Shown piece by piece: positions 6,545 through 21,583 of a DNA stretch of 51,436 nt. Origin of the DNA: Syntrophaceae bacterium (GTDB lineage: Bacteria > Desulfobacterota > BSN033 > UBA1163); contig JACAEV010000154.1 in assembly GCA_013388645.1 (NCBI GenBank), positions 1 to 51,436 on the forward strand. The letters are read 5' to 3'. The notes beneath the pieces are model-generated. The model did no database searches and was not told the origin of the DNA. It worked only from the letters and a program-made list of their open reading frames with translations. Within the stretch, counting starts at the first letter, position 1; each line of letters starts with the position of its first letter. Position numbers and translations under genes: made by a program.

Positions 6545-6562
6545 TACCTATGTAGACAGGTA
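6545..6562 (-). promoter_or_regulatory. operator A (GntR/HutC-type palindrome) before DUF47
   Basis: The plus strand reads TACCTATGTAGACAGGTA, with outer arms TACCT/AGGTA. Read toward DUF47 it overlaps the -10 element. It is one of four near-identical sites in the window (with 16398, 17747 and 21566) matching CCTRTNTASAYAGG. It fits the known HutC-subfamily shape GT-N-TA-N-AC, so the GntR protein at 20774 is the probable binder. Confidence 0.75.
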
Positions 6563-6587
6563 TAAAAGAAAATAATCATTTTGTCAA
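6559..6587 (-). promoter_or_regulatory. sigma70-type promoter for DUF47 gene
   Basis: The -35 is TTGACA (6587-6582), the spacer is 17 bases and the -10 is TATACC (6564-6559). The -35 hexamer contains the TGA stop codon of the preceding HAD gene. The -10 runs into operator A, so a bound repressor would block transcription. Confidence 0.7.
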
Positions 6588-7627
6588 TAGTTTTGTTTAA
6601 AAACGAAACAGAAGAGTTCCCTGGGGTCTTGGATCACAACATCGGCCCCGGCCTGGATCATTAATTCTCTAACAGTTTTTTTATTGTTTGGACCATGAAG
6701 AAAAGCAATGGCATGGAGGTTCAGATCTTTTTTCGCCCTCTGGGCGGCTATCATATCATCGACGACATCTCCGACGTAACCACAAATGGGGCGGGGAATA
6801 CCGATCTCCTGGACGGCCCTTAAAATAGAATAGGGGTGGGGCTTCGACCGCCTCGTTTTCTTTCCAGTTAAACGAAAGAGGCGGGTCTCCTCTTCTTCGC
6901 ATTCATTTAGGGTCACCATGCTTTTGAAATAGGGGAAAAGACGAAATCGCTTCAAAGCGAGTTCCGCTTCGAATCTTGGACGGCCACTCGCAATTCCCAT
7001 TTGGATTTTTTTTCGGAGAGTGGACAGAATCTTTTTGGGGACCAGCATCTTTTCTTGCCGATAAAGACCCTTCTCTTTATAGAAAAGACGAGGAAGATCA
7101 TAATGAGAAGAAAATTTTTCCCCTAAATAGATCTCTTGGAAAATACGCTTGATCAAATTATTTTTATTCAGGTCTCCTGATCGATAGACCCAACCGTCCC
7201 ATGAAGTTCCTAAAACTCGGTGGATCCCTCTCAGCCCTCCTCCTGACCTTTTGACTTTTTCTAAGAACATACGACGATCCCTTCTTCTCAACCGGATGAT
7301 CTTCTTCTGACGGAATTTGGAAGTTTTCGTTTTGAGATAGTAGAGATTCTCTTCAATAGAAGAAAATCTTTTTTGTTTTGGAAGAGGGGGAATCCCTGAA
7401 ACGGAGAGAAGGTAGAGAAGAAGCCCCGAGGTCAAATCCCAGTCATTATTAAACCCTCCTGCCGATTTGAAAAGAGAGATCTCTCCATCTGTCACCCAAT
7501 CCCCTGCCTGTCTTTGAAACCCCATGCAGGTTTTTAGATAGATTTGGATGGTCTGCTGAATGGTTTTACGATAGGACTTTGAAACGTCCACTAACACCCC
7601 ATCCATATCAAAGATGAGAACGTCCAT
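6584..7627 (-). CDS. HAD-superfamily phosphatase with enlarged cap
   Basis: This is a 347-residue haloacid-dehalogenase-fold hydrolase. Motif I is DMDGVLVD at residues 6-13 (nucleophile Asp6, acid/base Asp8), motif II is the Ser in ASGRP, motif III the Lys in SKPHP, and motif IV is GDVVDDM. The N-terminus DMDGVLVDVSKSYRKTIQQT resembles the subgroup of HAD-IA proteins linked to histidinol-phosphate-type aminotransferases. About 130 extra residues between motifs I and II, rich in Lys and Arg, enlarge the cap domain. A phosphomonoester substrate is expected, but its identity is unknown. I chose the internal ATG at 7627 because it starts directly at the conserved strand and has GGAG 10 bases upstream. 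It lies 104 bases after transketolase on the same strand and may share its message. Confidence 0.8.
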   Translation of the reverse strand: MDVLIFDMDGVLVDVSKSYRKTIQQTIQIYLKTCMGFQRQAGDWVTDGEISLFKSAGGFNNDWDLTSGLLLYLLSVSGIPPLPKQKRFSSIEENLYYLKTKTSKFRQKKIIRLRRRDRRMFLEKVKRSGGGLRGIHRVLGTSWDGWVYRSGDLNKNNLIKRIFQEIYLGEKFSSHYDLPRLFYKEKGLYRQEKMLVPKKILSTLRKKIQMGIASGRPRFEAELALKRFRLFPYFKSMVTLNECEEEETRLFRLTGKKTRRSKPHPYSILRAVQEIGIPRPICGYVGDVVDDMIAAQRAKKDLNLHAIAFLHGPNNKKTVRELMIQAGADVVIQDPRELFCFVFKQNY

Positions 7628-7730
7628 AATGATAAAGCTCCGATGGCCAACTTCCAATAACCAAACAACAGAAATTTCGGAAATTGATTATGGTCTGGTG
7701 TTTTGAATTTGGTGTTTGGTGATTTCCGCC

Positions 7731-9668
7731 TCATTTCCTTGCGATCTCATCGAGTACCACCTGGATGAGGCTTTCGGCATCTAATCCCTGCATCTTGTAA
7801 AGATCATCCGGTTTCCCAGAACTTCCGTATTGTGTGATCCCTAACTTCCGAAAACGAATGGACAACCGATGTTCTGCGATCACATTGGCAATACGGCTTC
7901 CGAGACCCGTATGAATCTGGTGATCCTCATAGGTGATGACCGTTCCCGTGTGGGCAGCCTTGAGGATGGCTTCAACATCTAAATCGCTCAGGCAAGAAAT
8001 GTTCAGGACCTGAACTTCGATTCCCTTTTCCTTCAATTTCTCCCAAGCTTGGACTGCCCGATAGACCATACCTCCTGTTGTGATGATGGCCGCATCTTTC
8101 CCCTTTCGAACCAGATCAGCATCGCCGTACCGAAACTCATAGGCATGGCCAAACATAGGGATTCCTTCTTCAGTGAGAAGAATGGGGATGGGAGAGCGAC
8201 CCATGGCGACTAAAAAATTCCCATGGGTTTTGGCAACATATCGAATGACCCGATCGGTCTGGTTGGGGTCTGCTGGAATGATGATTTTGTACCCAAAGAG
8301 GTTTCGCATTACCCCAACATAGTCGATACATTGATGCGTATTGCCATCTTCACCGACATCGAGGCCGTTATGCGTGCAGATCAATTTGAGGTTTGTTTCA
8401 TTGATATCGTTGAGGCGGTGTTGATTGTAGGTTTCATCAATCCCGAAGACGCCGAAATCGGCAAAGAGGGAGAGAAGACCGAGGGTGGAGATCGAACCCG
8501 CGATGGTGGCAGTATTATGCTCCTGAATTCCTCCTTGAAAGAAATGGTCTGGAAATTGTTTGGCGAAAGCGGTCGTCTTTGTTGAAGGGGCTAAGTCACA
8601 ATCGAAAACGGTCATAGGAAGAGAACCATCCTTTTTTAGGTTTACCTTGGCGAGATCCAGAAGAGCATTTCCAAAGGCTGAACGGTTATCCAGCTTCTGA
8701 TCTTTTTCATAATTTCTTGGATTTCCTATTTGGATGGAAGGGATTTCGATCGGATATTTTCTCCCGGAAAAGGGAAGGTTTTCTTTCTCCCGAATTTGGC
8801 GGTAGCGATCTAAATCGTCCTCCACTCCCAGCTCCTGGATGGCCTTTTTGTACTCCTCCAGATTTAAGGCCCTTCCATGAAATTCTTCTTTTCCCTCCAT
8901 GAAAGAGACGCCCTTTCCCATGGTGGTGTGGGCGAGGATCATCGTGGGGTGGTGGTTGATGCTCGCCTTTCGAAATGCAGAATAGATCTCCTGGAATTGA
9001 TGGCCATCGACTTCAATGACCTTCCATCCATCTGATTCATAATTTTTTGAAATATTCTGGGGCATGATTTCTGGCGTGACTCCGCTGATCTGTCTTAAGT
9101 TGTAGTCGATGATGACGGTAAGGTTATCCAGGCCATATTTGATCGCAAAGCGGCGGGCCTCAGAGATCTGGCCTTTCTGCTGTTCTCCACAACCCATGGT
9201 GACAAAAACATGGAATCCTCTTTTTAATATTCTTGATCCCAATGCGAATCCACAGCCTGCGGATAATCCTTGGCCCAGGTTGCCGGTATTCCATTCCACA
9301 CCCGGAATTCCTTTTTCCACATGTCCTTCGAAAGGACTTCCTGCTTTCCGAAAGGTTGCAATCGCAGCCTCAATAGGATAGAAGCCGATACGGCCAAGGG
9401 CCGAATATACGCCAGGAGAGGTATGCCCATGACTGATGACGATTCGATCTCTGTTGGGATCCGAAGCATACTGGGGATGAACATTGGCATAGGAATAAAG
9501 GACCAAATAAAAATCAATGGACGACATCGATCCCCCTGGATGTCCTGATCCAGCCAGGGTTGTCATCTTCAGGATATCGCCACGTGCCAACCTGGCCAAT
9601 TCGGCTAACTTTTTAATCGATTCTTCATCCAGTGTTTCAGCATCAAATCTTTTTTGGTTCATTGACAC
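7731..9668 (-). CDS. transketolase, divergent
   Basis: This 645-residue full-length thiamine-diphosphate transketolase would transfer two-carbon ketol units between sugar phosphates. Order: ThDP/pyrophosphate domain 1-290, pyrimidine domain about 320-500, C-terminal domain 510-645. Family signatures are GHPGGSMS, ISHGHTSPG, TGNLGQGLS, EFHG (His264), the catalytic Glu in GIQEHN and GEDGNTHQ. The metal-binding motif is abnormal: residues 159-161 read GCG where the family has GDG, although Asn190 in IIDYN is kept and the Gly after it is Leu. It is not adjacent to other pentose-phosphate genes but sits in the HAD/DUF47 series and near a transaldolase-like gene, so it may serve the local catabolic locus. 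ThDP binding with Cys160 is an open question. Confidence 0.88.
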   Translation of the reverse strand: MSMNQKRFDAETLDEESIKKLAELARLARGDILKMTTLAGSGHPGGSMSSIDFYLVLYSYANVHPQYASDPNRDRIVISHGHTSPGVYSALGRIGFYPIEAAIATFRKAGSPFEGHVEKGIPGVEWNTGNLGQGLSAGCGFALGSRILKRGFHVFVTMGCGEQQKGQISEARRFAIKYGLDNLTVIIDYNLRQISGVTPEIMPQNISKNYESDGWKVIEVDGHQFQEIYSAFRKASINHHPTMILAHTTMGKGVSFMEGKEEFHGRALNLEEYKKAIQELGVEDDLDRYRQIREKENLPFSGRKYPIEIPSIQIGNPRNYEKDQKLDNRSAFGNALLDLAKVNLKKDGSLPMTVFDCDLAPSTKTTAFAKQFPDHFFQGGIQEHNTATIAGSISTLGLLSLFADFGVFGIDETYNQHRLNDINETNLKLICTHNGLDVGEDGNTHQCIDYVGVMRNLFGYKIIIPADPNQTDRVIRYVAKTHGNFLVAMGRSPIPILLTEEGIPMFGHAYEFRYGDADLVRKGKDAAIITTGGMVYRAVQAWEKLKEKGIEVQVLNISCLSDLDVEAILKAAHTGTVITYEDHQIHTGLGSRIANVIAEHRLSIRFRKLGITQYGSSGKPDDLYKMQGLDAESLIQVVLDEIARK

Positions 9669-9696
9669 CCCCGATAGCGTTTAAAGAATCAATAAA

Positions 9697-9737
9697 ATCC
9701 CCCCAACCCCCCTTTACCAAAGGGGGAGAGGGGGGAT
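9697..9737. repeat. G/C-tract hairpin
   Basis: ATCCCCCC pairs with GGGGGGAT, and an inner CCCCCTTT pairs with AAAGGGGG, giving a long two-part stem. It may end transcription in either direction, but it lacks a clean U-run. A weaker relative (CCTTCC...AAAGGGAGG) occurs near 10075-10130. Confidence 0.55.
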
Positions 9738-9952
9738 CGCCCCTCTATTATAATAGAGATTGAATTCATTGCAAGTCTCTTTTATGATAGGAGACAACTC
9801 CTCGATTAAGGGTTCAGGTCATATACCTGTATCCACGTACCCCTTTTTGGCATAGAGGGGGGAGAGGAGATTTTTAAAAGTAATTAGCCATTAGGTAAAC
9901 TCCCGGCTCTGCTGGGGGACTCGCAGCGTTTGACCGGAACGTGCCCCGCAAG

Positions 9953-9971
9953 CCCCGCCTTGTAGGCGGGG
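9953..9971. repeat. short GC-rich hairpin, copy 1
   Basis: CCCCGCC and GGCGGGG form a perfect 7-base stem with the loop TTGTA. It resembles the second hairpin 40 bases downstream, suggesting a REP-like element. Confidence 0.5.
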
Positions 9972-10007
9972 TCAAGGGGCACAAAATAAATGAGACACCC
10001 TTGCCAT

Positions 10008-10036
10008 GAAGCCCCGTCCTGTGGGCGGGGAGCTTC
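10008..10036. repeat. short GC-rich hairpin, copy 2
   Basis: GAAGCCCCG pairs imperfectly with CGGGGAGCTTC around TCCTGTGGG. It shares the AGCCCCG...GGCGGGG core with copy 1 at 9953. Confidence 0.5.
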
Positions 10037-10192
10037 ACATTTTCGGGAATATGCATTTCTCTTGAGAAATTCCTCCCAACCTTCCTTTGCCTGTCTTTGA
10101 CAGGAAAAAGATTACCAAAGGGAGGGGAAATATTTCACCGTTTGCCAAAGGGGGATGAAAAACTCATAAATGGATGGGGCTATGATAGGACC

Positions 10193-10972
10193 ATGGGGGA
10201 ATATCGGAAGATAGCAGGCATTGAACATGAAGGGAAGCACATTCCCTGCCGCCTTATCATTTTTGATAAGGATGGAACGCTGATCGATTTTGCAGCCACT
10301 TGGGTTCCTCTGATTCGAAAAAGGGTTGCTTTTTTATTAAAGCAGTTAGGAAGAAATGGAGGATTAGAAGCCTTTTTATTGAAATCTTGGGGGATAGATC
10401 CAATGACTGGAAAAGTTGACCCAAGAGGACCTTGCCCGGTATCGCCGAGATCGGACGAAATTATTATTGGGACGATGGCTCTTTATCAGCATGGGTTTCC
10501 ATGGGATGAATCGAAGAGTCTCGTAGCGCAAGCATTTGACCTTGCCGATGCAGATGGAGATTGGCGAGAGAAGGTGGTTCCCATTAAAGACATCCAAACT
10601 TTTCTTTCCCGATTGAAATGCGATGGCGTCTATACTGCCCTTGCAACCAACGACGAGCGAAAGGATACGGAGGCTATTCTCTCTCATCTTGAAATGGAGG
10701 GGTTGTTTGATATCATCCTCTGCGCAGGAGAGGTGGAACCACCCAAACCTCATCCTGAGACCATCTTAACCATTTGCCGGAAGCTCTCCATTCCTCCTGA
10801 AGAGACAGTCATGGTGGGGGATTCGGTCACAGACATGATGATGGGGAAAAGGGCCGGTGTGGCGTTGACCATTGGAATTCTTGAAGGAGGGGTGACTCCA
10901 AAAGAAGAATTGGAGAAGGTGGCTGACTTCGTGGTCAACTCGATCCGCGATTTAAAATTTTGCGATTTTTAA
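10193..10972 (+). CDS. HAD-superfamily phosphatase, phosphoglycolate-phosphatase-like
   Basis: This is a 259-residue HAD hydrolase. Motif I is FDKDGTLIDF, motif II the Thr in ATND, motif III the Lys in KPHP and motif IV GDSVTDMMMG. The cap is the small helical type of subclass IA. It is unrelated in detail to the first HAD gene at 6584. The substrate is not evident; phosphoglycolate phosphatase is the nearest general description. I placed the start at ATG 10193 because upstream codons lie in a repeat and are not family-like. The ribosome site is weak (TAGGA only 2 bases away). It stands alone on the plus strand between transketolase (divergent) and the acylase gene 200 bases on. Confidence 0.8.
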   Translation: MGEYRKIAGIEHEGKHIPCRLIIFDKDGTLIDFAATWVPLIRKRVAFLLKQLGRNGGLEAFLLKSWGIDPMTGKVDPRGPCPVSPRSDEIIIGTMALYQHGFPWDESKSLVAQAFDLADADGDWREKVVPIKDIQTFLSRLKCDGVYTALATNDERKDTEAILSHLEMEGLFDIILCAGEVEPPKPHPETILTICRKLSIPPEETVMVGDSVTDMMMGKRAGVALTIGILEGGVTPKEELEKVADFVVNSIRDLKFCDF

Positions 10973-11173
10973 TCGAATTTACTGTGACCATCGGGGATGG
11001 TAGGAACTCCTTTCCTTGAGGTGGAGCGAAAATAGGGGAAATGTGAACATGAGCCGAATATAAGGACGAAACCGATCAAGAAGGGGGAATTCGAACCCAA
11101 GTCGACTTGAAGTCGATATATTTCAGGAACCCCTCGCTTCAGAGGTGAGGGAGGCTTCAGAGGAGGGAAAGCC

Positions 11174-13621
11174 ATGAAAAAGTTCGCACTGAGTATCTTC
11201 TGTTTGATTTGCATTTACTGTTTTTCATCAACGGATTCACTTTCAAAAACCTCTTTAGTGACGGTTTATCGGGATGACTACGGAGTCCCCCATATTTTTT
11301 CTCAGGACATCGAAGGGCTCTTTTACGGTTTTGGCTATGCCACGGCCCAGGACAGGCTTTTTCAGATAGATATGCTTCGAAGAACTTATTGGGGAAGGGT
11401 CGCGGAAGTTCATGGAGCCAAATTTCTTGAATTTGATAAATCCATGCGTCGGGACAATCTGACACGGGCTCAAGTGAAGGACCAGATTGGGGCCCTGGAT
11501 AAGGAATATCAAAGCGTCTTGCGTTCCTTTGCTGATGGTATCAATGCTTATGTTCGTGAGATTCAGAGCGACCCCTCGCAGAAAGCCCCTGCCGAATTCG
11601 GCAAATTTGGAGTTGACCCCGAAAAGTGGGAAGCAGAAGATGTCGCAGCCGTTTTTAATTCTGTCATGGGTGTCTTTATGGATTTCTCAAGGGAATTGGA
11701 AAACCGGGCACTTCTCGATTTCCTCATCAAAAAACACGGGCAAAAGAAAGGACAAGCGATCTTTAAAGATTGTGTCTGGGGAAATGATCCCAGTGGTTTT
11801 ACGACGATCCCATCCATTGCCAAAGCAACGCCGGTTACCAAGAGAAAGGCTGAACATGTTAAGCCCAACTCTGTTGCCATGGGGCTGATGAAGGAGTCAG
11901 AGACGCTTCGCCAGGCTTACCTCCAATTGGGCATCCTTCCTCCAGGTGACATCCTTGCATCCAGTTACGCTTTTGTGGTTTCAGGAAAACGCTCGGCAAC
12001 AGGAAATGCCCTTTTAATGGGTGGACCTCAATTTGGTTTCCACCTTCCATCCGACCTCTATGAAGCAGGACTTCATGGGCCAGGGATGAATGTGATCGGA
12101 TCGACCTTAGTCGGGTATCCCTGTCTGATGTTCGGCCATAATGAAAAGAGTGCCTTTTCATCGACCGCTGGAGTGGATAATATTACAGATATCTTTGAAG
12201 AGAAGCTAAATCCCAAAAATCCTCGTCAATATTGGTTTTTGGGAAAGTGGCGTGCCATGGATGCGCGAAAAGAGGTCTTCAAGGTGAAGAATGAGGAGCC
12301 TAAGGAGTTTACTTTTTATTATACGGTTCATGGGCCCATCATTCGAATGGATGAAGGGAAGGGAATTGCCTATTCTAAGCAACTTGCCTGCAAAGAAGAC
12401 TACCTTTCTGGATTCGTATCCTTCTATGAACTGATGAAGGCTCAGACGCCTGAAGATTTTAAGAAGGCCGCTTCCCTCAGTTCCCTTTCGGTCAATGTCT
12501 ACTATGCAGATACATCAGGCCACATAGGATATTTTCATCAGGGGAGATATCCAAAACGAAATGGAAAGGTAAATCTCCTTTTTCCAACACCAGGGACGGG
12601 AGAATTCGAATGGGAGGGATTCATGCCGACTGATAAAAACCCTCATGTGATGAATCCAACAACAGGAATTATTGCCAACTGGAATAACAAACCTGCAAGA
12701 GATTGGTGGAATGGAGATCTTGGTGGAATATTAGGGGGTGTAGGAGGATGGGGTATTGATCACCGTGCCTCCCTTCTGATGGAGATCGTAAAGGGGAAAG
12801 ATAAGATTTCGATCGATGATCTAAAGAAGATGATTCAGGATATTACTTTTTCTCACCTTGGAGCTCAGAGGTTCAAACCTTTCCTTATGGAGGCGGGGAA
12901 GAGATACAAGAGTTCTGATTCAAGGATTGAGAAGGCTCTTGAAATTCTGAAGGCATGGGATGATCGATGGTCCGATCAAAATAATGATGGATTTTATGAT
13001 CATCCTGGTCTCACGATCTTCAATGCCTGGTGGGATATCGTGCTTAAGAACACTTTTGAAGATGAATTGGGAGACTATTGGGTATCTCTTGAGACAAGCT
13101 ATGGTGGCCCTTATGCCTGGGAAAGAAGAAAAAGATATCCTGGGAATTCTCTTTTTCTGCGGGCACTCCTTGGGAAGAAGGCACCCAATCCCACTGGACT
13201 TGATTACTTCAATGGAAAAAGAGATGAAATTCTTGTGAAGAGCCTAAGCGAAGCTCTCGACAGGGTGGAGAAAAAATTTGGAACATCCGAAATGAACACG
13301 TGGAAGACACCGGTTACTCCGATGGGTTATGTTCCAACAACCATTCACGGAGTCACTTCCACAGGAGAGAAGGTCAAGGGGACTTTCTTCATGGAGCGAG
13401 GGACGGAGAATCATATTGTCGAATTAAAAAAGGAGGGGGCAGAAGGAATGATGGTCGTTCCCCCTGGTACAAGCGGTTTGGTCAAACCTGATGGGACAAA
13501 GAGTGCCCACTATGAGGACCAGCTCGAACTGTTTAACCGGTTCCAATATAAACCGATGTTGTTGAAAGAGGAGGCGATTAAAGCCAAACCCAAACAGGAA
13601 CTGACCTATACTTATGAATAA
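11174..13621 (+). CDS. penicillin acylase family amidohydrolase (Ntn hydrolase), secreted
   Basis: This 815-residue precursor has a signal peptide (about 1-25), an alpha-chain region, a spacer and a beta chain. Family marks are VYRDDYGVPHIF, FGYATAQDRLFQIDMLRR, GPQFGFHLPSDLYEAGLHGPG, the FGHNEKSAFSSTAG stretch and the oxyanion-site segment NWNNKPARDWW. The expected self-cleavage nucleophile is Ser264 in LASSYAFVVSGK; the residue after it is Tyr, where classical members have Asn. Enzymes of this family hydrolyse amides such as penicillin G, acyl-homoserine lactones or other N-acyl compounds in the periplasm, and the substrate cannot be told here. The ribosome site is GGAGG 9 bases before the ATG. 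No partner genes are in tight linkage, though it lies inside the larger catabolic locus. Confidence 0.88.
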   Translation: MKKFALSIFCLICIYCFSSTDSLSKTSLVTVYRDDYGVPHIFSQDIEGLFYGFGYATAQDRLFQIDMLRRTYWGRVAEVHGAKFLEFDKSMRRDNLTRAQVKDQIGALDKEYQSVLRSFADGINAYVREIQSDPSQKAPAEFGKFGVDPEKWEAEDVAAVFNSVMGVFMDFSRELENRALLDFLIKKHGQKKGQAIFKDCVWGNDPSGFTTIPSIAKATPVTKRKAEHVKPNSVAMGLMKESETLRQAYLQLGILPPGDILASSYAFVVSGKRSATGNALLMGGPQFGFHLPSDLYEAGLHGPGMNVIGSTLVGYPCLMFGHNEKSAFSSTAGVDNITDIFEEKLNPKNPRQYWFLGKWRAMDARKEVFKVKNEEPKEFTFYYTVHGPIIRMDEGKGIAYSKQLACKEDYLSGFVSFYELMKAQTPEDFKKAASLSSLSVNVYYADTSGHIGYFHQGRYPKRNGKVNLLFPTPGTGEFEWEGFMPTDKNPHVMNPTTGIIANWNNKPARDWWNGDLGGILGGVGGWGIDHRASLLMEIVKGKDKISIDDLKKMIQDITFSHLGAQRFKPFLMEAGKRYKSSDSRIEKALEILKAWDDRWSDQNNDGFYDHPGLTIFNAWWDIVLKNTFEDELGDYWVSLETSYGGPYAWERRKRYPGNSLFLRALLGKKAPNPTGLDYFNGKRDEILVKSLSEALDRVEKKFGTSEMNTWKTPVTPMGYVPTTIHGVTSTGEKVKGTFFMERGTENHIVELKKEGAEGMMVVPPGTSGLVKPDGTKSAHYEDQLELFNRFQYKPMLLKEEAIKAKPKQELTYTYE

Positions 13622-13724
13622 AACAGGGCATTTTTTCTTGCCTGGTATCCGCGAGATCGTGGATGGAGTTTGAAGGAGCGTTAGGCTTTTTCCCCGAGTT
13701 TCTATACTTGAGACTCCGAACCAA

Positions 13725-16142
13725 CTAACTTTTTACTTTCAGGTTTTCGGGGTCATAAAGCGGTTCTCTTTCAACGGTGGCTTCATACCTCTTGGCAGCG
13801 ACTTCGATTTGTAGTCGGGTCCCGGGTTCCGTATAATGGATGGGGAGATATCCATAGGCAATGGGCTTTTTGATTGTGTGCCCAAAGCCTCCACTGGTGA
13901 CCAAACCGATCACCTTGTCTCCATCAAGAATGGCTTCTTTTCCAATGGGCATCAGAGGCCCGGAATGGATGGTCAGGCAAGAGAGGCGACGGGTGATCCC
14001 TTTTTCTTTCTGAATCAGTAAAGCGTTTCGGCCAATGAAATCTCCTTTATCCAGCTTGACACAGAAATCAAGACCCGCTTCAAAAGGAGTGTATTCAGGT
14101 GAAATATCTCCACTCCAATATCGGTATCCTTTTTCCAGGCGTAAAGATTCAATACAGCGATATCCCGCGTTGATCAGCCCAAAGGGTTTCCCTACTTCCC
14201 AGATGGCATCGTAGACATGCAAGGCATATTCCACTGGTACATGCAATTCCCATCCCAGTTCACCCACATAGGTGATTCGAAGGGCAAGGGCAGGGGCGTG
14301 ACCGATTGTGATTTGTTTACAGGTCATGTAGGGAAATCCCTCATTGGAAAGATCGTCTTTGGTCAATGGTTTAAGGATTTGCCGCGACAGAGGGCCACAA
14401 AGGGTGATACAGGCTTTACTGGATGTCACATCATTGACCGATATAAGAGAGTTTTTGGGGAGATGTCTCTGGATCCAGGATAAGTCATGTTTCACAAAGG
14501 CAGTTCCTGTGACAATATAAAAGTGTTCCTCCCCAAGGCGACTGATGGTGAGATCACACTCCACTCCTCCTTTTTCATTCAGCATCTGGGTATAGGTGAT
14601 CGACTCGATGGGTTTATCCATTTGGTTAGCTGTTATTTTCTGGAGAAATGGAAGCGACCCAGGACCTTTGATCTCGATTTTTCCGAACGAGGTTTGGTCG
14701 ATGACTCCTGCCTTGGTTCTAACCGCTTCGTGTTCCTTTCCAACATGTTCAAACCAATTTGGAAGTCTCCACCCTAATTTATCTTTTGGAGCTACCCCTT
14801 TGGGGGCAAACCAGTTCGGCCTCTCCCAACCCGATTTTTCTCCAAAAACCGCCCTCATCTTTTTTAAGCGTGGGTAAAGTGGGCTTGTCCGTAAGGGCCT
14901 TGCGGAAAGCATCTCTTCATAGGGCCTACTCATCGAATAGTGGTGGGCGTAGACTTCGATGGATCTTTCGAGGGCATATTTTTGACTTCCGTGGTGGGCT
15001 CCAAATCGCCGTATGTCCAAACGCCAAAGATCTAAGCTGGGCGCCCCTTCGATGATCCATTCGGCCATCATCTTTCCAACTCCTCCTCCGGCAGCAATCC
15101 CATGGGCGCAGAAACCTGCGGCGACGAAGAAATTCTTCACTTCTGCCGCTTCCCCCATCACAAAATCTCCGTCGGAGGTAAACGCCTCAGGCCCATTGAG
15201 CAATGTGATGATTTCAGCATCACCAATAGCCGGAACCCGCTTGATGGCCAGAAGGGAGAGAGGTTCGAAATGTTCGTAGTTAGATTTAAGTAATGTCTTG
15301 GTAAAATCTCTCGGAATCCCATCCAACGCCCATGGAATGGGATTGTGTTCATACCCTCCCATGATGAGGCCCCCCACTTCCTCACGGAAATATACAAGAA
15401 GATCGGGGTCTCGCATGGTGGGCATTCCCTTTCGGACTCCCTTGATCGGTTTGGTAATGATATATTGGTGCTCCATTGGAATAATGGGGATGGAAACACC
15501 CACCATCTTTCCAATCTCTGGTGCCCAGATCCCAGCAGCATTCACCACGATTTCTGTTTTGATGTTTCTTTTTTCCGTTAGAACCTGATCGACTGCCCCG
15601 TTCTTTAAAGTAATCCCTGTCACACGGGTCTCTGTATAAATCGTCGCCCCACGATCTTTGGCTCCTTTAGCCAGGGCATACGTCACTCCACTTGGATCAA
15701 TCTGACCATCTGTCGGAAGATTGGCCGCTCCAACGATCCCTTTCTTTTCCATCACGGGAAAAAGGTCACAAGCTTCTTTAGGACTGATCAATTCCATGGG
15801 CAATCCGAAGGTTTTGGCCATGGCGGCTGATCGGCGCAATTCTTCCATCCGGTCCTTTGATGAAGCGATCCGAAGACCGCCCACTTCGCTCCAACCGGTA
15901 TGTTGGCCTGTCTCTTCATCCAGCCGAGAGTAGAGTTCGATGCTGTATTTCAGCATCTTCGTAATGTTTACCGAGGAGCGTAATTGACCCACCAGACCGG
16001 CAGCATGAAAGGTGGCACCGCTGGTGAGTTCTCCCTTATCCAAAAGGATCACGTCGTTCCATCCCATTTTGGTCAGATGGTAAGCAATGCTGCAGCCTGT
16101 AATTCCGCCTCCGATGATCACCACCCTGGCTTGATCTTTCAT
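13725..16142 (-). CDS. FAD-dependent dehydrogenase with GcvT domain (dimethylglycine/sarcosine dehydrogenase type)
   Basis: This 805-residue two-part enzyme has an N-terminal DAO-type FAD domain with the Rossmann motif IIGGGITG (residues 9-16) and the sequence SGATFHAAGL. Its His46 corresponds to the residue that binds FAD covalently in dimethylglycine and sarcosine dehydrogenases. The C-terminal half (about 430-800) is an aminomethyltransferase (GcvT) folate-binding domain, with ECDLTISRLG, YRCIESLRLEKGYRYWSGDISP and GRNALL typical of it. The expected reaction is oxidative N-demethylation of an N-methyl amine with capture of formaldehyde by tetrahydrofolate; the actual substrate is unknown. 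The ribosome site is GGAGG 9 bases before the ATG. It is divergent from the ABC substrate-binding protein gene, and its promoter carries operator D, tying it to the GntR regulon. Confidence 0.87.
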   Translation of the reverse strand: MKDQARVVIIGGGITGCSIAYHLTKMGWNDVILLDKGELTSGATFHAAGLVGQLRSSVNITKMLKYSIELYSRLDEETGQHTGWSEVGGLRIASSKDRMEELRRSAAMAKTFGLPMELISPKEACDLFPVMEKKGIVGAANLPTDGQIDPSGVTYALAKGAKDRGATIYTETRVTGITLKNGAVDQVLTEKRNIKTEIVVNAAGIWAPEIGKMVGVSIPIIPMEHQYIITKPIKGVRKGMPTMRDPDLLVYFREEVGGLIMGGYEHNPIPWALDGIPRDFTKTLLKSNYEHFEPLSLLAIKRVPAIGDAEIITLLNGPEAFTSDGDFVMGEAAEVKNFFVAAGFCAHGIAAGGGVGKMMAEWIIEGAPSLDLWRLDIRRFGAHHGSQKYALERSIEVYAHHYSMSRPYEEMLSARPLRTSPLYPRLKKMRAVFGEKSGWERPNWFAPKGVAPKDKLGWRLPNWFEHVGKEHEAVRTKAGVIDQTSFGKIEIKGPGSLPFLQKITANQMDKPIESITYTQMLNEKGGVECDLTISRLGEEHFYIVTGTAFVKHDLSWIQRHLPKNSLISVNDVTSSKACITLCGPLSRQILKPLTKDDLSNEGFPYMTCKQITIGHAPALALRITYVGELGWELHVPVEYALHVYDAIWEVGKPFGLINAGYRCIESLRLEKGYRYWSGDISPEYTPFEAGLDFCVKLDKGDFIGRNALLIQKEKGITRRLSCLTIHSGPLMPIGKEAILDGDKVIGLVTSGGFGHTIKKPIAYGYLPIHYTEPGTRLQIEVAAKRYEATVEREPLYDPENLKVKS

Positions 16143-16397
16143 GGTTCATATCCTCCATTGCCTAAAAAATAAAGGTTATCGTCTAAAGGTAATGGGTAAA
16201 GATGCCCGTATCGTTAAATTAAAATTGACGTCCGTCGTTGTCGAACCTTGTATCGATACTCGTGTAGGGAGACTGGACGTTCGAGCTTCATCTTTCAAAC
16301 TTCATGCTTCGAAACCAGCTTCGTCACCCATAACCGTTTACCCTATAACCAAACGGGCTTCGTAACCATAACCCTAAAATGATTTTATCGAGCTACC

Positions 16398-16415
16398 TTC
16401 CTGTTTACACAGGAC
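16398..16415 (-). promoter_or_regulatory. operator D (GntR/HutC-type palindrome) before FAD/GcvT dehydrogenase
   Basis: It contains TCCTGTTTACACAGGA (16399-16414), perfectly self-complementary apart from the centre. It aligns with operators A, B and C over CCTRTNTASAYAGG and lies at the -10 of the minus-strand promoter. Confidence 0.7.
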
Positions 16416-16440
16416 TAATTTAAAAAATAGTTTTTGTCAA
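16412..16440 (-). promoter_or_regulatory. promoter for FAD/GcvT dehydrogenase
   Basis: The -35 is TTGACA (16440-16435), the spacer 17 bases and the -10 TAGTCC (16417-16412). The -10 is poor and merges with operator D, the same layout as the DUF47 promoter. Confidence 0.55.
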
Positions 16441-16451
16441 CAGCAAAAAGG

Positions 16452-16480
16452 TTGACAAAAAAAATTCTTTTCGATATAAA
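16452..16480 (+). promoter_or_regulatory. strong sigma70-type promoter for substrate-binding protein
   Basis: The -35 is TTGACA (16452-16457), the spacer 17 bases and the -10 TATAAA (16475-16480). The -35 boxes of this and the minus-strand promoter are 11 bases apart. No copy of the operator overlaps this one. Confidence 0.65.
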
Positions 16481-16599
16481 AAAAAACAATACCCAATCGA
16501 TTCCAAAATCTTAAGCAAAGGAGGGGAGGTGAAGATTTAAGAGTTTCAAAGAAAAAAAGGAATAATCAAAGATATCTGAAAAAAAAGGAGGTTAAACGT

Positions 16600-17610
16600 A
16601 TGAAGGGGAAATGGATGATGTTAATGATCAGCATTATGACGATGATGTTTGTGTTAGGAACTGCAGTCGCCCAAGAGAAGGTGACCGTCTATACATCTTT
16701 AGAAACGGATGAGACCGTTAAATACCTGGAGCTGGCCAGAAAGGAGCTCCCCGGACTCCAGATCGATATCATCCGACTTTCGACAGGGGAATTGGGAGCA
16801 AGGATGTTGGCAGAAAAAGACAATCCTCAGGCAGACTGCATTTGGGGATGGGCGGTGACCAACACCGAACAGTTTATTCCAATGGGAATGTTAGAGCCTT
16901 ATAAACCCAAAGGGGTGGAGAAGTTGGATCAGAGGTTTGTCCATCCGAAATATTTTTATGCTGGGATCGATATGTACATCGCTGCCTTCTGTGTGAATAC
17001 AAAAGTCCTGAAAGAGAAAAATCTTCCCATGCCAAAGGGATGGTACGATCTGCTCAATCCCAAATTTAAAGGTCTTCTGGCCATGCCCAATCCCGCAGCC
17101 TCAGGAACCGGATTTCTGCAGGTGGCAAGCCTCCTTCAAATGTATGGAGCCAAAGAGGGAAAGGAAGACGGTTGGGAGTTTTTAAAGAGTTTGGATAGAA
17201 ATATGGGCCAATATATTAAAAGTGGGTCGAGACCGGCCAAGATGACGGCACAAGGGGAATTTGCTGTGGGATGCTCCTTCGATTTCGTCGTGGGTGAGCT
17301 GAAAAAGCAAGGAGCTCCGGTCGAATTTGTTTTCCCTGTGGAAGGGGCAGGATATGAAGTGGAGGCGAATGCTCTCCTTAAAGGTGCCAAAAACCCAAAT
17401 GCGGCAAAGAAATTTTTGGATTGGGCTATCAGTCCGAGTGCCATGAAACTTTATTCGGAATTTAAATTAGGGGTCACCCTGCCTGGAATCCCCACCCGCA
17501 CGGATATGCCAAAATTGTCAGAGATCAAACTCTATCCAATGGACTTTGCCTGGCAGGCCAAGAATCGCGATGCGATTCTGAAGAAATGGGAAAGCCTTTT
17601 CTTGAAATAA
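16600..17610 (+). CDS. ABC transporter substrate-binding protein, iron(III)/2-aminoethylphosphonate type
   Basis: This 336-residue periplasmic binding protein has a signal peptide ending at AVA-Q (about residue 25), then KVTVYTSLETDE, the usual opening of the FbpA/PhnS-like family. Internal marks are DCIWGWAVTNTEQF, FCVNTKVLKEKNLPMPKGWYDLLNPKFKG and GCSFDFVVGELKKQG. Most close relatives by this pattern are annotated as putative 2-aminoethylphosphonate (PhnS2-type) or iron binders. The lack of a clear iron-tyrosine pair argues against iron. The ribosome site AGGAGG is excellent. The gene has its own strong promoter and a terminator right after it, so it is made apart from, and probably in excess of, the ATPase and permease. 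Confidence 0.87.
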   Translation: MKGKWMMLMISIMTMMFVLGTAVAQEKVTVYTSLETDETVKYLELARKELPGLQIDIIRLSTGELGARMLAEKDNPQADCIWGWAVTNTEQFIPMGMLEPYKPKGVEKLDQRFVHPKYFYAGIDMYIAAFCVNTKVLKEKNLPMPKGWYDLLNPKFKGLLAMPNPAASGTGFLQVASLLQMYGAKEGKEDGWEFLKSLDRNMGQYIKSGSRPAKMTAQGEFAVGCSFDFVVGELKKQGAPVEFVFPVEGAGYEVEANALLKGAKNPNAAKKFLDWAISPSAMKLYSEFKLGVTLPGIPTRTDMPKLSEIKLYPMDFAWQAKNRDAILKKWESLFLK

Positions 17611-17630
17611 AGCATGGGGGAAACCTTGTT

Positions 17631-17667
17631 GGGCACTCCACTCTGAGTGGGTGGGGTGCCTTTTTTA
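17631..17667 (+). terminator. rho-independent terminator after binding-protein gene
   Basis: A GC-rich stem (GGCACTCCAC with GTGGGGTGCC, small mismatch) is followed at once by six T residues. It lies 20 bases past the stop codon and isolates the binding-protein message from the ATPase operon. Confidence 0.8.
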
Positions 17668-17720
17668 TTGACCCTGTGGAGTTGTCCCTTCGTCGCCGAA
17701 TATGGATATCTTTAATGGGG

Positions 17721-17749
17721 TTGACATTATTTTTTAATTCCATTAAAAC
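17721..17749 (+). promoter_or_regulatory. promoter for ATPase-permease-GntR operon
   Basis: The -35 is TTGACA (17721-17726), the spacer 17 bases and the -10 TAAAAC (17744-17749), overlapped by operator B. About 180 bases of leader with a degenerate repeat follow before the ATPase start. Confidence 0.6.
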
Positions 17750-17764
17750 CTATTTAGACAGGTA
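17747..17764 (+). promoter_or_regulatory. operator B (GntR/HutC-type palindrome) before ABC ATPase operon
   Basis: It reads AACCTATTTAGACAGGTA and differs from operator A in two positions. It sits on the -10 of the operon that encodes the GntR protein itself, which implies autoregulation. Confidence 0.72.
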
Positions 17765-17926
17765 GATAGTTTGTTATCAGGTTAAGGCCATGAGGCCAGT
17801 TTGGGATAAGGTCAGAGGGTTATGTTTAAATGACTTTACAGATCAATAACATTACCCCTTCTCGAAACTGGCCCCTTTACCCTTACCGTTCGACCTTAGA
17901 CTTCAATACAAGGACGTAAAAAAATC

Positions 17927-19018
17927 ATGGGAAGAAATCTCAGGTTGGAAAACCTTACTAAGAAATTTGGGACGCTCACCGCCGTGGATCATGTGGATCT
18001 CGAAATCGAGGAGGGGGAGTTCATCTGTTTTCTGGGTCCGAGCGGTTGCGGCAAGACCACGGTCCTCAGGATGATCACCGGGTTTGAGACGGTGACGGAG
18101 GGGAAGGTCATTTTTGATGGGAGGGTGATCAATAACCTTATTCCGCAAAAGAGGGAGTTTGGGATCGTCTTCCAGTCCTATGCTCTTTTTCCCAATATGA
18201 CGGTGGAAGAGAATATCGCCTTTGGCCTCAAAGTGAGGAAGATGCCTAAGAAGGAGGTCGCTGAGAGGGTCGATCAAATGCTTGACTTGATAGGGTTGCG
18301 CGACTGGAGAAAACTTTACCCGGCTCAACTCAGCGGAGGGCAACAACAGAGGGTAGCGCTGGTAAGGGCCCTTGCTCCCAACCCTCAAGTTCTCCTCTTG
18401 GATGAGCCCCTGAGTGCTTTGGATGCAAAAATTCGTGTTCGCCTCAGGGCAGAAGTCAAGCGACTTCAGCAGGAACTTAAGAAGACGATGATTTACGTCA
18501 CCCACGACCAAGAAGAGGCGCTCTCGATCGCAGACCGTGTGGTCGTCATGGAGGCTGGACAGTTTCGGCAGGTGGGAAAGCCCATTGAGATTTATCAATG
18601 TCCCAATTCCAGCTTTGTCGCAGATTTTGTTGGGACATCGAATTTTTTTAAAGGGAGTCGATACGAAGATCGGGTCAAAACCGGCAAGAGGGAATTTAAA
18701 ATCTCTCAATCAGGTCCGCCGACGGAGGGGGAGGTATTTTTAGCCATTCGACCAGAAAAAATAGAGGTGTTTAAAGAGGGAACGCTGCCCAGCGCCTTGG
18801 AACCTTCGAACGTGATTTCTGGTAAAATTGATGTCGTCACCTTTTTAGGGGCCGCGGTTCGTCTGACCATCAACATCGATGGAGAGGAGTTGATTTCCGA
18901 TATCATTGAGAAAGAGTTCGCGCAGCGACAGCTCAAACAAGGGGAAAAAGTCCTTCTTTATTTTCCTCCGGAAGCCTTTATTGTTTATCCCATGACTCAA
19001 AGAGAGGGGATCTCATGA
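17927..19018 (+). CDS. ABC transporter ATP-binding protein (PhnT2/PotA-like)
   Basis: This is a 363-residue importer ATPase. Walker A GPSGCGKTT is at 37-45, the Q-loop in VFQSYALFP at 81-89, the signature LSGGQQQR at 135-142, Walker B VLLLDEP at 155-161 and the switch His in YVTHDQEE. A TOBE domain follows from about 285 to the end. It belongs to the group serving iron, polyamine and putative 2-aminoethylphosphonate importers. Its stop overlaps the permease start by 4 bases (ATGA). The ribosome site is weak, with AAGGA about 13 bases upstream. It forms the first gene of the operator-B operon. Confidence 0.92.
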   Translation: MGRNLRLENLTKKFGTLTAVDHVDLEIEEGEFICFLGPSGCGKTTVLRMITGFETVTEGKVIFDGRVINNLIPQKREFGIVFQSYALFPNMTVEENIAFGLKVRKMPKKEVAERVDQMLDLIGLRDWRKLYPAQLSGGQQQRVALVRALAPNPQVLLLDEPLSALDAKIRVRLRAEVKRLQQELKKTMIYVTHDQEEALSIADRVVVMEAGQFRQVGKPIEIYQCPNSSFVADFVGTSNFFKGSRYEDRVKTGKREFKISQSGPPTEGEVFLAIRPEKIEVFKEGTLPSALEPSNVISGKIDVVTFLGAAVRLTINIDGEELISDIIEKEFAQRQLKQGEKVLLYFPPEAFIVYPMTQREGIS

Positions 19019-20763
19019 GTCGAACCGAAACGACGCAGGGTCTTACCATCTCAGCCCCCATCAGCAGTGACCGGTGGCTGACGGGAGTCACAATGGGATT
19101 TCTGTTGGCCGTCCTCATCTTTTTTATGCTCTACCCGGTTTACGACATTTGCAAACTGAGTTTCTTTCGTGGGGAAAAACTCACCCTTGAAAATTATATA
19201 TCCTATTTCACCAATCCAAGAATGTTTCGATCCTTGACCAATAGCCTGATCGTCTCTGGGGCGACCACAGTCATCACCACGATCCTCGCTTTCTTCTTCG
19301 CTTATGGATTGACCCGAACGACCATTCCGGGAAAGGGGATTTTCTATACCATTTCGACCCTCCCTCTGATCGCCCCTTCCATCATTCAAGGGTTGGCGTT
19401 AATTCTTTTATTCGGGAAGAATGGATTGTTCACCCGTTATTTGCTTCATACCGATTGGAACATCTATGGAGCAACAGGGATCATTGTCGCAGAATGCCTT
19501 TACTGTTTTCCCAATGCCCTCTTTATTCTGTACACCACCCTCTCTGCCGTGGATACGCGATTGGATGAAGCCGCGCAGAGCCTGGGAGCTTCTGCTCTGA
19601 AAACCTTTTATAAAGTCACCCTCCCTTCGGCCAAATATGGGATTGCGAGTGCCGCGGCCCTGGTGTTTAACTTGACGATTACCGATTTTGGTGTCCCTGT
19701 GGTGATCGGAGGAAACTATAATGTGTTGGCGACTGAAATTTATCAACAAGTCATTGGAATGCAGCGGTTCAACCTGGGAGCCACAATCAGCGTGATCCTG
19801 CTCATTCCTTCCGTCGCCGCTTTTCTTTTAAACTATTACCTCACCAAAAAAAGTTATGCCCTCATCAGCGGTCAGGCTCGTCCATTTCTCCAACCCTCTC
19901 GGCCCTTTAAAAAATGGGCCTTCACCATTTATTGCTGGATCCCTTGCACCTTTATCCTCATTGTGTTTGCAACGGTTTTCCTGGGTTCCTTTGTTAAGGT
20001 CTGGCCTTATGATTTTTCTCTCACCTTGAAACATTATAATTTCCCTTCGTTGGGGGGAGTGGCACCCTTATGGACCAAATTCTGGGCCTCTTTCCTGAAA
20101 GGAGAGTGGCAAGCCATCATCGCTTATAAGTATGCCCCCATCTGGAATAGTCTTTGGATCTCTATTTTTGTCGCCGTTGGAGGCGCATGCCTGACGCTCT
20201 TGGCCGGATACATTGTTGAAAAAAAGAAGCCCAAAGGGGAACAGGTTCTCTATACCTTGAGCGTGTTGCCAGCGGCCATCCCTGGGATCGTGATGGGTTT
20301 GGGGTATATCCTGGCTTTTAACAAACCTTACTTTTTTATATACGGGACGTTCTGGATCGTCATCATCAATATCATCATCTGCAATTTTACACTGGGTGTC
20401 CTTTCCAGTATTGCCAATCTGAAACAGATCGATAAGTCCATTGAGGAGGCAGCGGTCAGTCTGGGAGCTAACCCCATTACCACTTTTGCCCGTGTGGTCT
20501 TCCCGCTCACCAAAACCGCCTTTTTCTCCAACATGACTTTCTTCTTCATGCGGGCGATGACCACCATCAGTGCTGTGATCTTTCTTGTTTCAGCGAAAGT
20601 GAAGCTGGCAGCCATTGAGATCGTTTTCCTCGATATCGATGGCCGAACCGCCAGCGCTAATGCCATGTGTACTATTATCATTCTCATCGTGGTTGGAATG
20701 CTGGTCGCCATGCGGTTGATCACTGGCAGAACCGCGCTGAAAGGAATGAGTGCCACGACCTAA
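19015..20763 (+). CDS. two-domain ABC permease, putative 2-aminoethylphosphonate type
   Basis: This 582-residue inner-membrane protein contains two fused binding-protein-dependent permease domains. The first spans about 30-280 with its EAA loop at DEAAQSLGASALKTFYKVTLP. The second spans about 305-570 with EEAAVSLGANPITTFARVVFP. About twelve membrane segments are expected. One protein thus supplies both halves of the channel, as in FbpB and PhnU2-type permeases. It overlaps the ATPase gene by 4 bases and is followed 10 bases later by the GntR gene. The combination binding protein, ATPase, fused permease and GntR regulator is the usual make-up of the putative 2-aminoethylphosphonate importers, but no PhnW or PhnX enzyme is nearby. 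Confidence 0.9.
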   Translation: MSRTETTQGLTISAPISSDRWLTGVTMGFLLAVLIFFMLYPVYDICKLSFFRGEKLTLENYISYFTNPRMFRSLTNSLIVSGATTVITTILAFFFAYGLTRTTIPGKGIFYTISTLPLIAPSIIQGLALILLFGKNGLFTRYLLHTDWNIYGATGIIVAECLYCFPNALFILYTTLSAVDTRLDEAAQSLGASALKTFYKVTLPSAKYGIASAAALVFNLTITDFGVPVVIGGNYNVLATEIYQQVIGMQRFNLGATISVILLIPSVAAFLLNYYLTKKSYALISGQARPFLQPSRPFKKWAFTIYCWIPCTFILIVFATVFLGSFVKVWPYDFSLTLKHYNFPSLGGVAPLWTKFWASFLKGEWQAIIAYKYAPIWNSLWISIFVAVGGACLTLLAGYIVEKKKPKGEQVLYTLSVLPAAIPGIVMGLGYILAFNKPYFFIYGTFWIVIINIIICNFTLGVLSSIANLKQIDKSIEEAAVSLGANPITTFARVVFPLTKTAFFSNMTFFFMRAMTTISAVIFLVSAKVKLAAIEIVFLDIDGRTASANAMCTIIILIVVGMLVAMRLITGRTALKGMSATT

Positions 20764-20773
20764 GGGAGGACCT

Positions 20774-21535
20774 GTGCCTGAAGCGTTCCGTTTGGAAAAG
20801 GGCGTTCCCAAATATATTCAGATCAGCAACTGGCTGATCGAGATGATCCAGAAGGGAAGGTATGCGGTCAATGATAAGTTACCCTCTGAATCCAAGCTCT
20901 CCGAGCTTTTTCAGGTCAACCGCAACACGGTTCGACAGGCCATTTCAGATCTGGTCGCCAAGGGGTTGGTCCAGAAAAAAAATGGTGTCGGTTCTTTTGT
21001 GTTGAGCCAGGCGATCACTCCCGTCAAGTATACCCTCCAGCATATTTCAAGTTTTACGGATGATATGCTCCGGATGGGGATCGTCCCTCAGACCCGTCTG
21101 ATCCATAAGTCCATCATCGAAGCCCCTCCGGAGGTTGCAGAAAAACTGATGTTGGGGAAAGAGAAGAAGGTGATCCTGACCGAACGCCTTCGGCTGGGAA
21201 ACCGAATTCCATTAGTGATTGAACGGAGCTATCTCCCCTATCGAGAATACAAGGACATTTTAAAGATGCGCTTAACCGGGTCCCTTTACCATCTCCTGAC
21301 CAAAAAGTTCCACGTCATTCTCCATCGTTCCATTCAAACCTTTCGGGCCGTGACTCTTTCCGGAAAGGATGCCAAATTATTGGGTCTCCCTCCGCGGTCC
21401 TCCGGAATTTTTTTAGAGAGCATCATCTACGATTCGAAAAACATCCCTGTGGAGGTGCTTCATGCTTTCCACCGGGGGGACAAATACATTTTTGAAGTGG
21501 AGTCGGGGAGATATCGGTACAATGTGGAGGCTTAA
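20774..21535 (+). CDS. GntR-family (HutC/UTRA) transcriptional regulator
   Basis: This 253-residue regulator has an N-terminal winged helix with PKYIQISNWLIEMIQKGRY, LPSESKLSELFQVNRNTVRQAISDLVAKGLV, and a C-terminal UTRA effector-binding domain (about 95-245) carrying ILTERLRLGNRIPLVIERSYLP. HutC-subfamily proteins release DNA when a transported metabolite or its breakdown product binds. I chose the GTG at 20774 because GGGAGGA lies 4 bases upstream and it follows the permease stop. An in-frame ATG at 20750 lies within the permease gene and has no ribosome site. It is last in the operon under operator B, so it probably controls itself, and the four shared palindromes are its likely targets. 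Confidence 0.9.
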   Translation: MPEAFRLEKGVPKYIQISNWLIEMIQKGRYAVNDKLPSESKLSELFQVNRNTVRQAISDLVAKGLVQKKNGVGSFVLSQAITPVKYTLQHISSFTDDMLRMGIVPQTRLIHKSIIEAPPEVAEKLMLGKEKKVILTERLRLGNRIPLVIERSYLPYREYKDILKMRLTGSLYHLLTKKFHVILHRSIQTFRAVTLSGKDAKLLGLPPRSSGIFLESIIYDSKNIPVEVLHAFHRGDKYIFEVESGRYRYNVEA

Positions 21536-21542
21536 AAAAGAC

Positions 21543-21571
21543 TTGACAAAAATTTTTTTTCTTGTTACCTG
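21543..21571 (+). promoter_or_regulatory. promoter for aminotransferase-aldolase-Ald operon
   Basis: The -35 is TTGACA (21543-21548), followed by an A/T-rich spacer of 17. The -10 position is occupied by TACCTG, the beginning of operator C. The -10 match is weak; the placement rests on the same -35/operator spacing seen at the other three sites. Confidence 0.5.
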
Positions 21572-21583
21572 TATAGATAGGTA
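21566..21583 (+). promoter_or_regulatory. operator C (GntR/HutC-type palindrome) before aminotransferase operon
   Basis: It reads TACCTGTATAGATAGGTA. The outer arms TACCT/AGGTA are perfectly complementary and so is CTGTAT/ATAGATAG with one change. It follows the GntR stop codon by 30 bases. Confidence 0.75.

Follow-up and report, generated by a model that had tools for sequence, protein, structure and literature searches.

Which protein acts at four near-identical palindromes in four promoters of a Syntrophaceae bacterium, and what do the genes behind these promoters do? The question is raised by a stretch of 51,436 nt, in the following called the window, which is contig C223 of assembly G000 (250 contigs, 95% complete). 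A first-pass annotation of this DNA had assigned the palindromes to a GntR/UTRA protein encoded among the same genes, and we consider this interpretation very probably right. From sequence comparison, we give a probability of roughly 0.88 to a model in which the four sites are predicted operators of the GntR/HutC-type protein encoded at 20750–21535, in a four-promoter repression model with a third half-site downstream of the palindrome. The sites and the candidate regulator are:

6547–6560, minus strand: operator 1 (CCTGTCTACATAGG), promoter of the DUF47 gene; exact TTGACA at 6582–6587 (minus)
16400–16413, minus strand: operator 2 (CCTGTGTAAACAGG), promoter of the FAD/GcvT gene, divergent from the phnS2-like gene; TTGACA at about 16435–16440 (minus)
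17749–17762, plus strand: operator 3 (CCTATTTAGACAGG), between the phnS2-like and phnT2-like genes; TTGACA at 17721–17726
21568–21581, plus strand: operator 4 (CCTGTATAGATAGG), between the GntR and aminotransferase genes; TTGACA at 21543–21548
20750–21535, plus strand: GntR/UTRA (HutC-type) regulator, 261 aa; PF00392 at 9e-19, PF07702 at 4e-31

In a pattern search of the window, CCTRTNTASAYAGG matches exactly at these four places; the alignment of four 14-base sites given in the first-pass annotation therefore holds, with starts that had been placed 2 bases too low. Across the whole assembly of 3,950,824 bases, the slightly wider CCTRTNTANAYAGG occurs exactly at four places, all of them in the window and within 15 kb of the GntR gene, and its reversed pattern occurs at none. 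From a first-order Markov model of the window, 0.4 exact matches would be expected per genome and 0.0015 per 15 kb, which bears out the view that four copies are unlikely by chance, and random matches elsewhere in the genome were not found, as no other exact place exists in 3.95 Mb. With up to 2 mismatches, CCTRTNTASAYAGG gave 12 strand-wise matches in the window compared to a shuffle mean of 3.8, and 12 was reached by 1 of 100 shuffles. In the genome, the search at up to 2 mismatches returned 292 places compared to 540 for its control. Only the exact pattern can thus be considered informative, and nothing was drawn from the 2-mismatch search about further regulon members. An extended 21-base pattern with 3 mismatches, which gave weak outside places at C136:34654 and C235:4531 of the same assembly and 6 and 8 in the control, was likewise set aside.

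On the transcribed strand, an exact TTGACA precedes each palindrome and ends 21, 21, 22 and 19 nt before operators 1 to 4, placing the palindrome over the –10/start region, where it overlaps the hexamers found at a strict 17-nt spacer (TATACC, TAGTCC, TAAAAC and TACCTG). The common promoter geometry reported previously was thereby recovered for the exact box and the overlapped –10, while "exactly the same" is a little too strong a wording for distances of 19 to 22 nt. The genes downstream of the four sites are, by gene map and domain matches, those originally named. We infer that a GntR dimer would bind the GT-N-TA-N-AC-type palindrome over the –10/start of the four TTGACA promoters and that a protein bound there would block polymerase and thus transcription; an effector on the UTRA domain would release it from the operator. 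Operator 3 precedes the ATPase, permease and GntR genes, so that the GntR gene would be autoregulated and the circuit self-regulating. Some GntR proteins both activate and repress, and NagR of B. thuringiensis is called a dual regulator in the title of a paper. Activation or dual regulation by the protein studied here is nevertheless improbable, since an exact –35 box is followed, in each of the four promoters, by a –10/start region that the operator overlaps.

Assignment of the regulator to the HutC subfamily could be achieved from its domains, with 67.3 bits for PF00392 (cut-off 27) and 108.2 bits for PF07702 (cut-off 23.8). Its nearest solved structures are NagR/YvoA and DasR, and its NCBIfam scores stay below the equivalog cut-offs of PhnF (119.4 vs 156.8) and PhnR (109.2 vs 296.75). 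In NagR, Arg38 contacts G-5 and Arg48 contacts G-4 (PMC4333415). The equivalent of Arg48 is Arg58 in the window protein and is arginine in all orthologue rows (at least 48% identity) covering the position; the equivalent of Arg38 is Ser48. Of the 8 half-sites in the window operators, all carry T at –5 and 5 carry G at –4, with which the Ser48/Arg58 pair appears consistent. For HutC proteins, an arginine at the first contact position is described to prefer G/C, and the published consensus is GTMTAKAC (PMC4494728); the operator core fits it as a family consensus over the relatives, in support of the previously claimed HutC-type palindrome. With NagR/YvoA, DasR and PhnF the system thus shares domain make-up, the central GT-N-TA-N-AC logic, the recognition arginine, an operator over the promoter and a regulator gene inside its own regulon. 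It differs from them in having T at –5 with serine instead of arginine at the contacting position, in the outer bases CCT/AGG and in an additional half-site within an extension that is conserved downstream.

Another member of this regulator family, encoded elsewhere in the genome, might own the sites, leaving the local GntR protein to act on something else. The UTRA match of the regulator is the only one in the window, as had been stated, and one of three in the genome; the other two genes lie on contigs C229 and C171. The C229 protein keeps the recognition arginine and, as the local GntR protein, has no arginine at the NagR Arg38 equivalent. Residue 48 fails as a discriminator, with arginine in none of the three proteins. 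The C171 protein has proline at the recognition-arginine position, and the C229 gene has its own TTGACA promoter with the different outer motif TTGTCTATACAA (one site, relatives not included); TTGTNTANACAA, looked for in the window, was not found there. Furthermore, six relatives (G005, G008, G011, G013, G014 and G015) bear sites and have no second GntR match at E <1e-11. We therefore consider ownership by another regulator very improbable.

Conservation was followed in a survey of 99 genomes including the own one, 17 of which constitute the family of the window. The GntR protein is present at 77–100% identity in 13 of the 17, and 12 of these 13 have exact sites; the remaining one, G006, displays one- and two-base variants, CCTGTATAGATAGC at the operator-4 place and GCTGTCTAAACAGT at the operator-1 place. 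Gene maps of the loci place the relatives' sites before the same genes, so that the same promoters are marked in related genomes. All 13 family genomes with the GntR gene have operator 4, which in G006 deviates from the pattern by one base; relatives that retain the gene but have lost the sites were accordingly not seen. Operator 1 stands in 11 of 13 at the corresponding place after a HAD gene (the region was not fetched for the other two, G014 and G016, and the stretch ends before DUF47 in G011 and G015), operator 2 in 9 of the 12 family genomes having the FAD/GcvT gene (the G014 promoter lies off the contig) and operator 3 in 6 of the 10 genomes whose loci span the gap; the loci of G008, G010 and G014 stop inside the gap and were not counted. 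Four of these six read CCTTTATAGACAGG; operator 3 has diverged in G001, G009, G011, G015 and G016. Presence and absence go together: GntR-less G002, G003 and G004 have no site, no full-length FAD/GcvT gene and no close aldolase relative, and GntR-less G007 has an aldolase relative at 58% identity with 0 matrix hits of at least 10 in the surrounding 9 kb.

The matrix used was trained on 27 relatives' sites, excluding the window. They were taken from 31 exact sites in loci L082–L103 after removal of L086 and L087, which have neither a TTGACA in place nor a regulon gene, of L091, with 5 of 6 TTGACA bases and likewise without a regulon gene, and of L098:31 (the same site as L097:34, at another contig end). 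It scores the four window sites at 46.3, 45.5, 23.2 and 20.7 and nothing else in the window above 8. At a threshold of 10, it returned 62 strand-wise hits in the window and 23 relatives' loci (353,803 bases) and 0 in the reversed sequences, and comparison with the gene maps placed all but one (L087) of the 62 at regulon promoters. The GntR protein was found at E ≤1e-50 in 14 of 395 genomes drawn from the phylum and therefore represents a narrow group.

Among more distant orthologues, the motif changes together with the regulator. The sites given here exclude core matches that fall within a gene or at the end of one. Where the GntR protein has 67% (G017) and 54% (G018) identity, TGTATAGACAG follows TTGACA before a GntR-aminotransferase or aminotransferase-GntR operon. 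At 48–52% identity (L018–L022, Desulfobacteraceae and related bins), TGTATATACA was observed at six intergenic places preceding phnT2-, phnS2-, GntR-, alanine dehydrogenase- or aldolase-led genes, and L165 has two core sites, one of them with TTGAC. These data bear on a further explanation, in which the shared motif is a promoter element or the relic of a recent promoter duplication instead of a protein-binding site. The copies are indeed nearly equidistant from TTGACA (19–22 nt in the window), and the four promoters are alike. Spacers vary, however, between promoters and genomes while palindrome and extension stay, there is no other exact copy in the genome, the motif follows the regulator and its core fits the HutC consensus, which leaves a promoter element or relic hardly probable at all.

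Beyond the palindrome, conservation continues downstream but not upstream, which makes the operator asymmetric and had been missed in the first-pass annotation. The extensions are:

6537–6546, minus strand: extension of operator 1 (TAGTTAGCTT)
16390–16399, minus strand: extension of operator 2 (AAGGTAGCTC)
17763–17772, plus strand: extension of operator 3 (TAGATAGTTT)
21582–21591, plus strand: extension of operator 4 (TAGTTAGGTA), with the right half-site repeated 8 bp on

In the 27 relatives' sites, which had been chosen without regard to the downstream stretch, positions 14–16 (first base of the palindrome counted as 0) are T in 27, A in 25 and G in 23, and positions 18–21 are T in 21, A in 25 and G in 23, with C or G at the last of them in all 27. 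Across the four promoters of the window, 6 of the first 12 columns downstream are invariant, which 0 of 20,000 random draws reached, and a milder count (7 columns with at least 3 alike) was reached by 0.4–0.6% of draws; it should be noted that the 12-base stretch was picked after the sequences had been seen. Matched along the same strand, YAGGTA gave a mean identity over the four promoter classes of 0.68 at a shift of 8, the highest value, of 0.59 at a shift of 4 and of at most 0.29 at the remaining shifts between 3 and 15. YAG itself was found at positions 18–20 in 32 of 39 copies and at 14–16 in 26; elsewhere between 13 and 27 it is all but absent. The 39-site class lists include non-exact, matrix-found sites and leave out L097:34, L086, L087 and L091, and the operator-1 class is without G014 and G016. 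A plain 8-bp repeat, CAGGTAATCAGGT, is displayed by the relatives' phnT2 sites, and divergent orthologues keep the 8-bp repeat as GATAGCTAATCAGC and GACAGGTAGTCAGC.

The element may consist of a palindrome and an added half-site to which a second dimer binds, in which a YAG-type repeat of the right half-site, 8 bp on, would recruit or steady that dimer. In NanR of E. coli, a member of the FadR subfamily, half-sites recur with a period of 8 bp. Its (GGTATA)3 operator is bound by three cooperating dimers (PMC8012715), and direct-repeat operators are known for NanR, FarR and NagQ (PMC8012715 for NanR). The arrangement of half-sites as direct repeats is common to NanR and to the operators described here. 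The repeats of NanR come without a palindrome, in contrast to the palindrome with one extra half-site observed here in another subfamily, where cooperativity is our guess.

Several observations weigh against this model and have to be set beside the evidence above. Only the site at 16400 is strictly GT-N4-AC; in each of the remaining window sites, one half-site has AT in place of GT/AC. Only TATACC at the first promoter resembles TATAAT, so that the strict –10 is poor at three of four promoters, and because of these poor boxes a consensus promoter scan of 16300–22000 recovered 0 of the 3 operator promoters in that stretch. Seven of 39 copies lack the YAG of the third half-site. Operator 2 accounts for four of these, and its fit at a shift of 4 is also better than at 8 (0.74 vs 0.46); a 4-bp periodic element is therefore an alternative to the third half-site. 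Matrix scans detected no operator 2 in G016 at threshold 10 and none in G006 at threshold 8. Since G002–G004 are without the whole gene set, they constitute a poor test of whether sites are lost when genes are kept and the regulator is lost. Single exact sites occur away from regulon genes in G005 (C6) and G009 (C40), and one without TTGACA and not beside the orthologues in G007; among the 82 genomes outside the family, 22 contain one or more exact matches, for which reason we regard single exact matches as background. Of the six TGTATATACA sites in the distant group, three have a TTGAC at no more than 36 nt and three have none within this distance, and no site of L018–L022 scores 8 or more with the family-trained matrix. 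No site was found in the fetched parts of G325 (L166), G022 (L106) and G021 (L108), of which L106 and L108 end at contig ends.

Under the repression model, the four operators would control the following genes, listed together with a hairpin between two of them:

5893–6519, minus strand: DUF47/PhoU_div protein (domain match), operator 1 target
13725–16142, minus strand: FAD/GcvT N-demethylating dehydrogenase (dimethylglycine dehydrogenase type), operator 2 target
16600–17610, plus strand: substrate-binding protein, phnS2-like, with AfuA/P5PA phosphate-pocket residues kept
17631–17661, plus strand: terminator-like hairpin after the phnS2-like gene (pattern match only; 3 in the stretch against a shuffle mean of 7.3)
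17927–19018, plus strand: ABC ATPase, phnT2-like, operator 3 target
19015–20763, plus strand: ABC permease, phnU2-like
21816–22928, plus strand: HisC-family aminotransferase paralogue, operator 4 target
22925–24118, plus strand: transaldolase-family (TAL_FSA) protein
24135–25253, plus strand: alanine dehydrogenase (TIGR00518, 489.3 bits vs a cut-off of 391.85)

As the terminator-like hairpin lies upstream of it, the phnT2-like gene would need a promoter of its own. The FAD/GcvT protein shows the domain order DAO, FAO_M, GCV_T and GCV_T_C expected of dimethylglycine/sarcosine dehydrogenases and matches solved dimethylglycine dehydrogenase/oxidase structures over its full length (5l46 and 1pj5, E 1e-172), so that N-demethylating chemistry is likely. 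PbfC and PbfD, which oxidize N-methyl-2-aminoethylphosphonate, release methylamine and phosphonoacetaldehyde (PMC10590968); in contrast, the GcvT half of the protein found here suggests transfer of the methyl group to tetrahydrofolate. The aminotransferase passes TIGR01141 (285.7 vs 276.55), and a second, stronger hisC match is present in 17 of 17 family genomes, which sets back the idea that it is the sole HisC of the genome. HisC acts on a 2-aminoalkyl phosphate. In the transaldolase-family protein, the lysine of an IKVP strand, which we take to be catalytic, aligns with the IKIP strand of transaldolases.

The importer proteins have phnS2, phnT2 and phnU2 as their best NCBIfam models (TIGR03261, TIGR03265 and TIGR03262), all below cut-off (333.4/392.75, 441.2/457.7 and 505.1/593.25). 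Judged by the printed alignment, the phosphate pocket of AfuA/P5PA (Thr62-Gly63, Ser-Gly-Thr) is retained in the binding protein, as is Glu229. The AfuA sugar-ring residues His205/Asp206 are replaced by Phe/Val, so that it is probably not an AfuA-type hexose-phosphate binder, and import of this type was set back; the difference to AfuABC (PMC4546632) and P5PA (PMC8427247) lies in these AfuA ring residues, and the likeness in the pocket and Glu229. A gene for a PiT-type phosphate transporter follows operator 1 in six genomes of genus g2 and in G006 (assigned by PF01384 for L092 and by shared N-terminal sequence for the others).

Taken together, the gene content suggests assimilation of an N-methylated aminoalkyl phosphate or phosphonate. 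The importer would take up an amine with a phosphate or phosphonate group, the FAD/GcvT enzyme would strip its N-methyl groups, and the amine would be transaminated to pyruvate, with alanine dehydrogenase recycling the alanine and the product passing to the aldolase; DUF47, together with the PiT transporter in the relatives, would handle phosphate. Plain use of 2-aminoethylphosphonate (AEP) is an alternative that concerns the substrate only and is compatible with the regulatory model. It is suggested by the best importer models and by AepSTU of P. putida, which has a binding protein of the same family (pfam13343) and is described as a functional AEP transporter (PMC8316502). All three importer proteins fall short of the curated cut-offs, however, and phosphonoacetaldehyde hydrolase (TIGR01422) is over cut-off in 0 of 17 family genomes (best 114.8 vs 220; 0 of 14 control genomes passed either), which sets the plain AEP pathway back and, as the aldolase would be left unexplained, makes it doubtful.

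A more specific proposal, tentative and in our estimation rather unlikely as it stands, is an undescribed anaerobic route for N-methylated aminoethyl phosphates of the phosphocholine/phosphoethanolamine series, under a HutC-type repressor with a palindrome and an 8-bp-spaced third half-site. An import or kinase step would be followed by N-demethylation through the FAD/GcvT enzyme or a pyrrolysine-free MtmB homologue with a corrinoid protein; the HisC paralogue would transaminate phosphoethanolamine to glycolaldehyde phosphate, which an aldolase of the transaldolase type (class I) or the fructose-bisphosphate type (class II) would convert to pentose phosphates. Among the open-access papers searched, and with the terms used, we found none that connects these genes with a regulon of this kind or with a route through a phosphoethanolamine aminotransferase. 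The same searches brought up neither this member of the HutC-type regulons, nor its gene set, nor the extended operator.

Some relatives display exchanges in the gene set. An MtmB (monomethylamine methyltransferase) homologue, a 496-aa open frame at L105:4899–6386 (minus strand), is present in G017, with homologues in L106 (G022) and L108 (G021). In the printed alignment, the G017 protein has isoleucine at the pyrrolysine position, and it lies with an adjoining corrinoid protein inside the GntR-aminotransferase-aldolase cluster; no FAD/GcvT gene was found in the fetched stretch of G017, the rest of that genome not having been searched. A pyrrolysine-free MtmB homologue is described in a recent report to act on choline and tetramethylammonium (PMC13044021). 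A gene of the choline/ethanolamine-kinase family (PF01633) is found in L022, with homologues at 27–29% identity in L109. Within the L018–L022 clusters, a class II fructose-bisphosphate-type aldolase replaces the transaldolase type (L018:10997–11869, L021:15867–16739 and L022:5675–6547).

The system is thus of a known kind, a HutC-type local regulon, in which the gene set and the extra operator repeat may be new. It provides a regulator, an operator and a defined gene set for genes that database models name only as generic enzymes and as an importer of the "putative aminoethylphosphonate" kind, in a lineage represented in the records examined almost wholly by metagenome assemblies. Since the regulon recurs in several families with swaps between enzymes of like function (two aldolase types, two demethylase types), its substrate is testable with purified proteins. 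The palindrome with an added half-site could furthermore serve as a clear example of how a palindrome may be extended by proteins of the GntR type.

Some minor observations complete the description of the locus. Long untranslated leaders of about 235–260 nt separate operators 2 and 4 from their genes (16142–16400 and 21581–21816). A penicillin-amidase-family protein is encoded at 11174–13621, between the HAD gene and the FAD/GcvT gene, and has no homologue in the mapped relatives' loci. On contig C229 of the own assembly (L169:329–4944), the UTRA gene is followed by a corrinoid protein gene and another MtmB homologue without an in-frame stop. Tandem alanine-dehydrogenase homologues are present in L018 (8352–9446 and 9680–10792) and also in L020.

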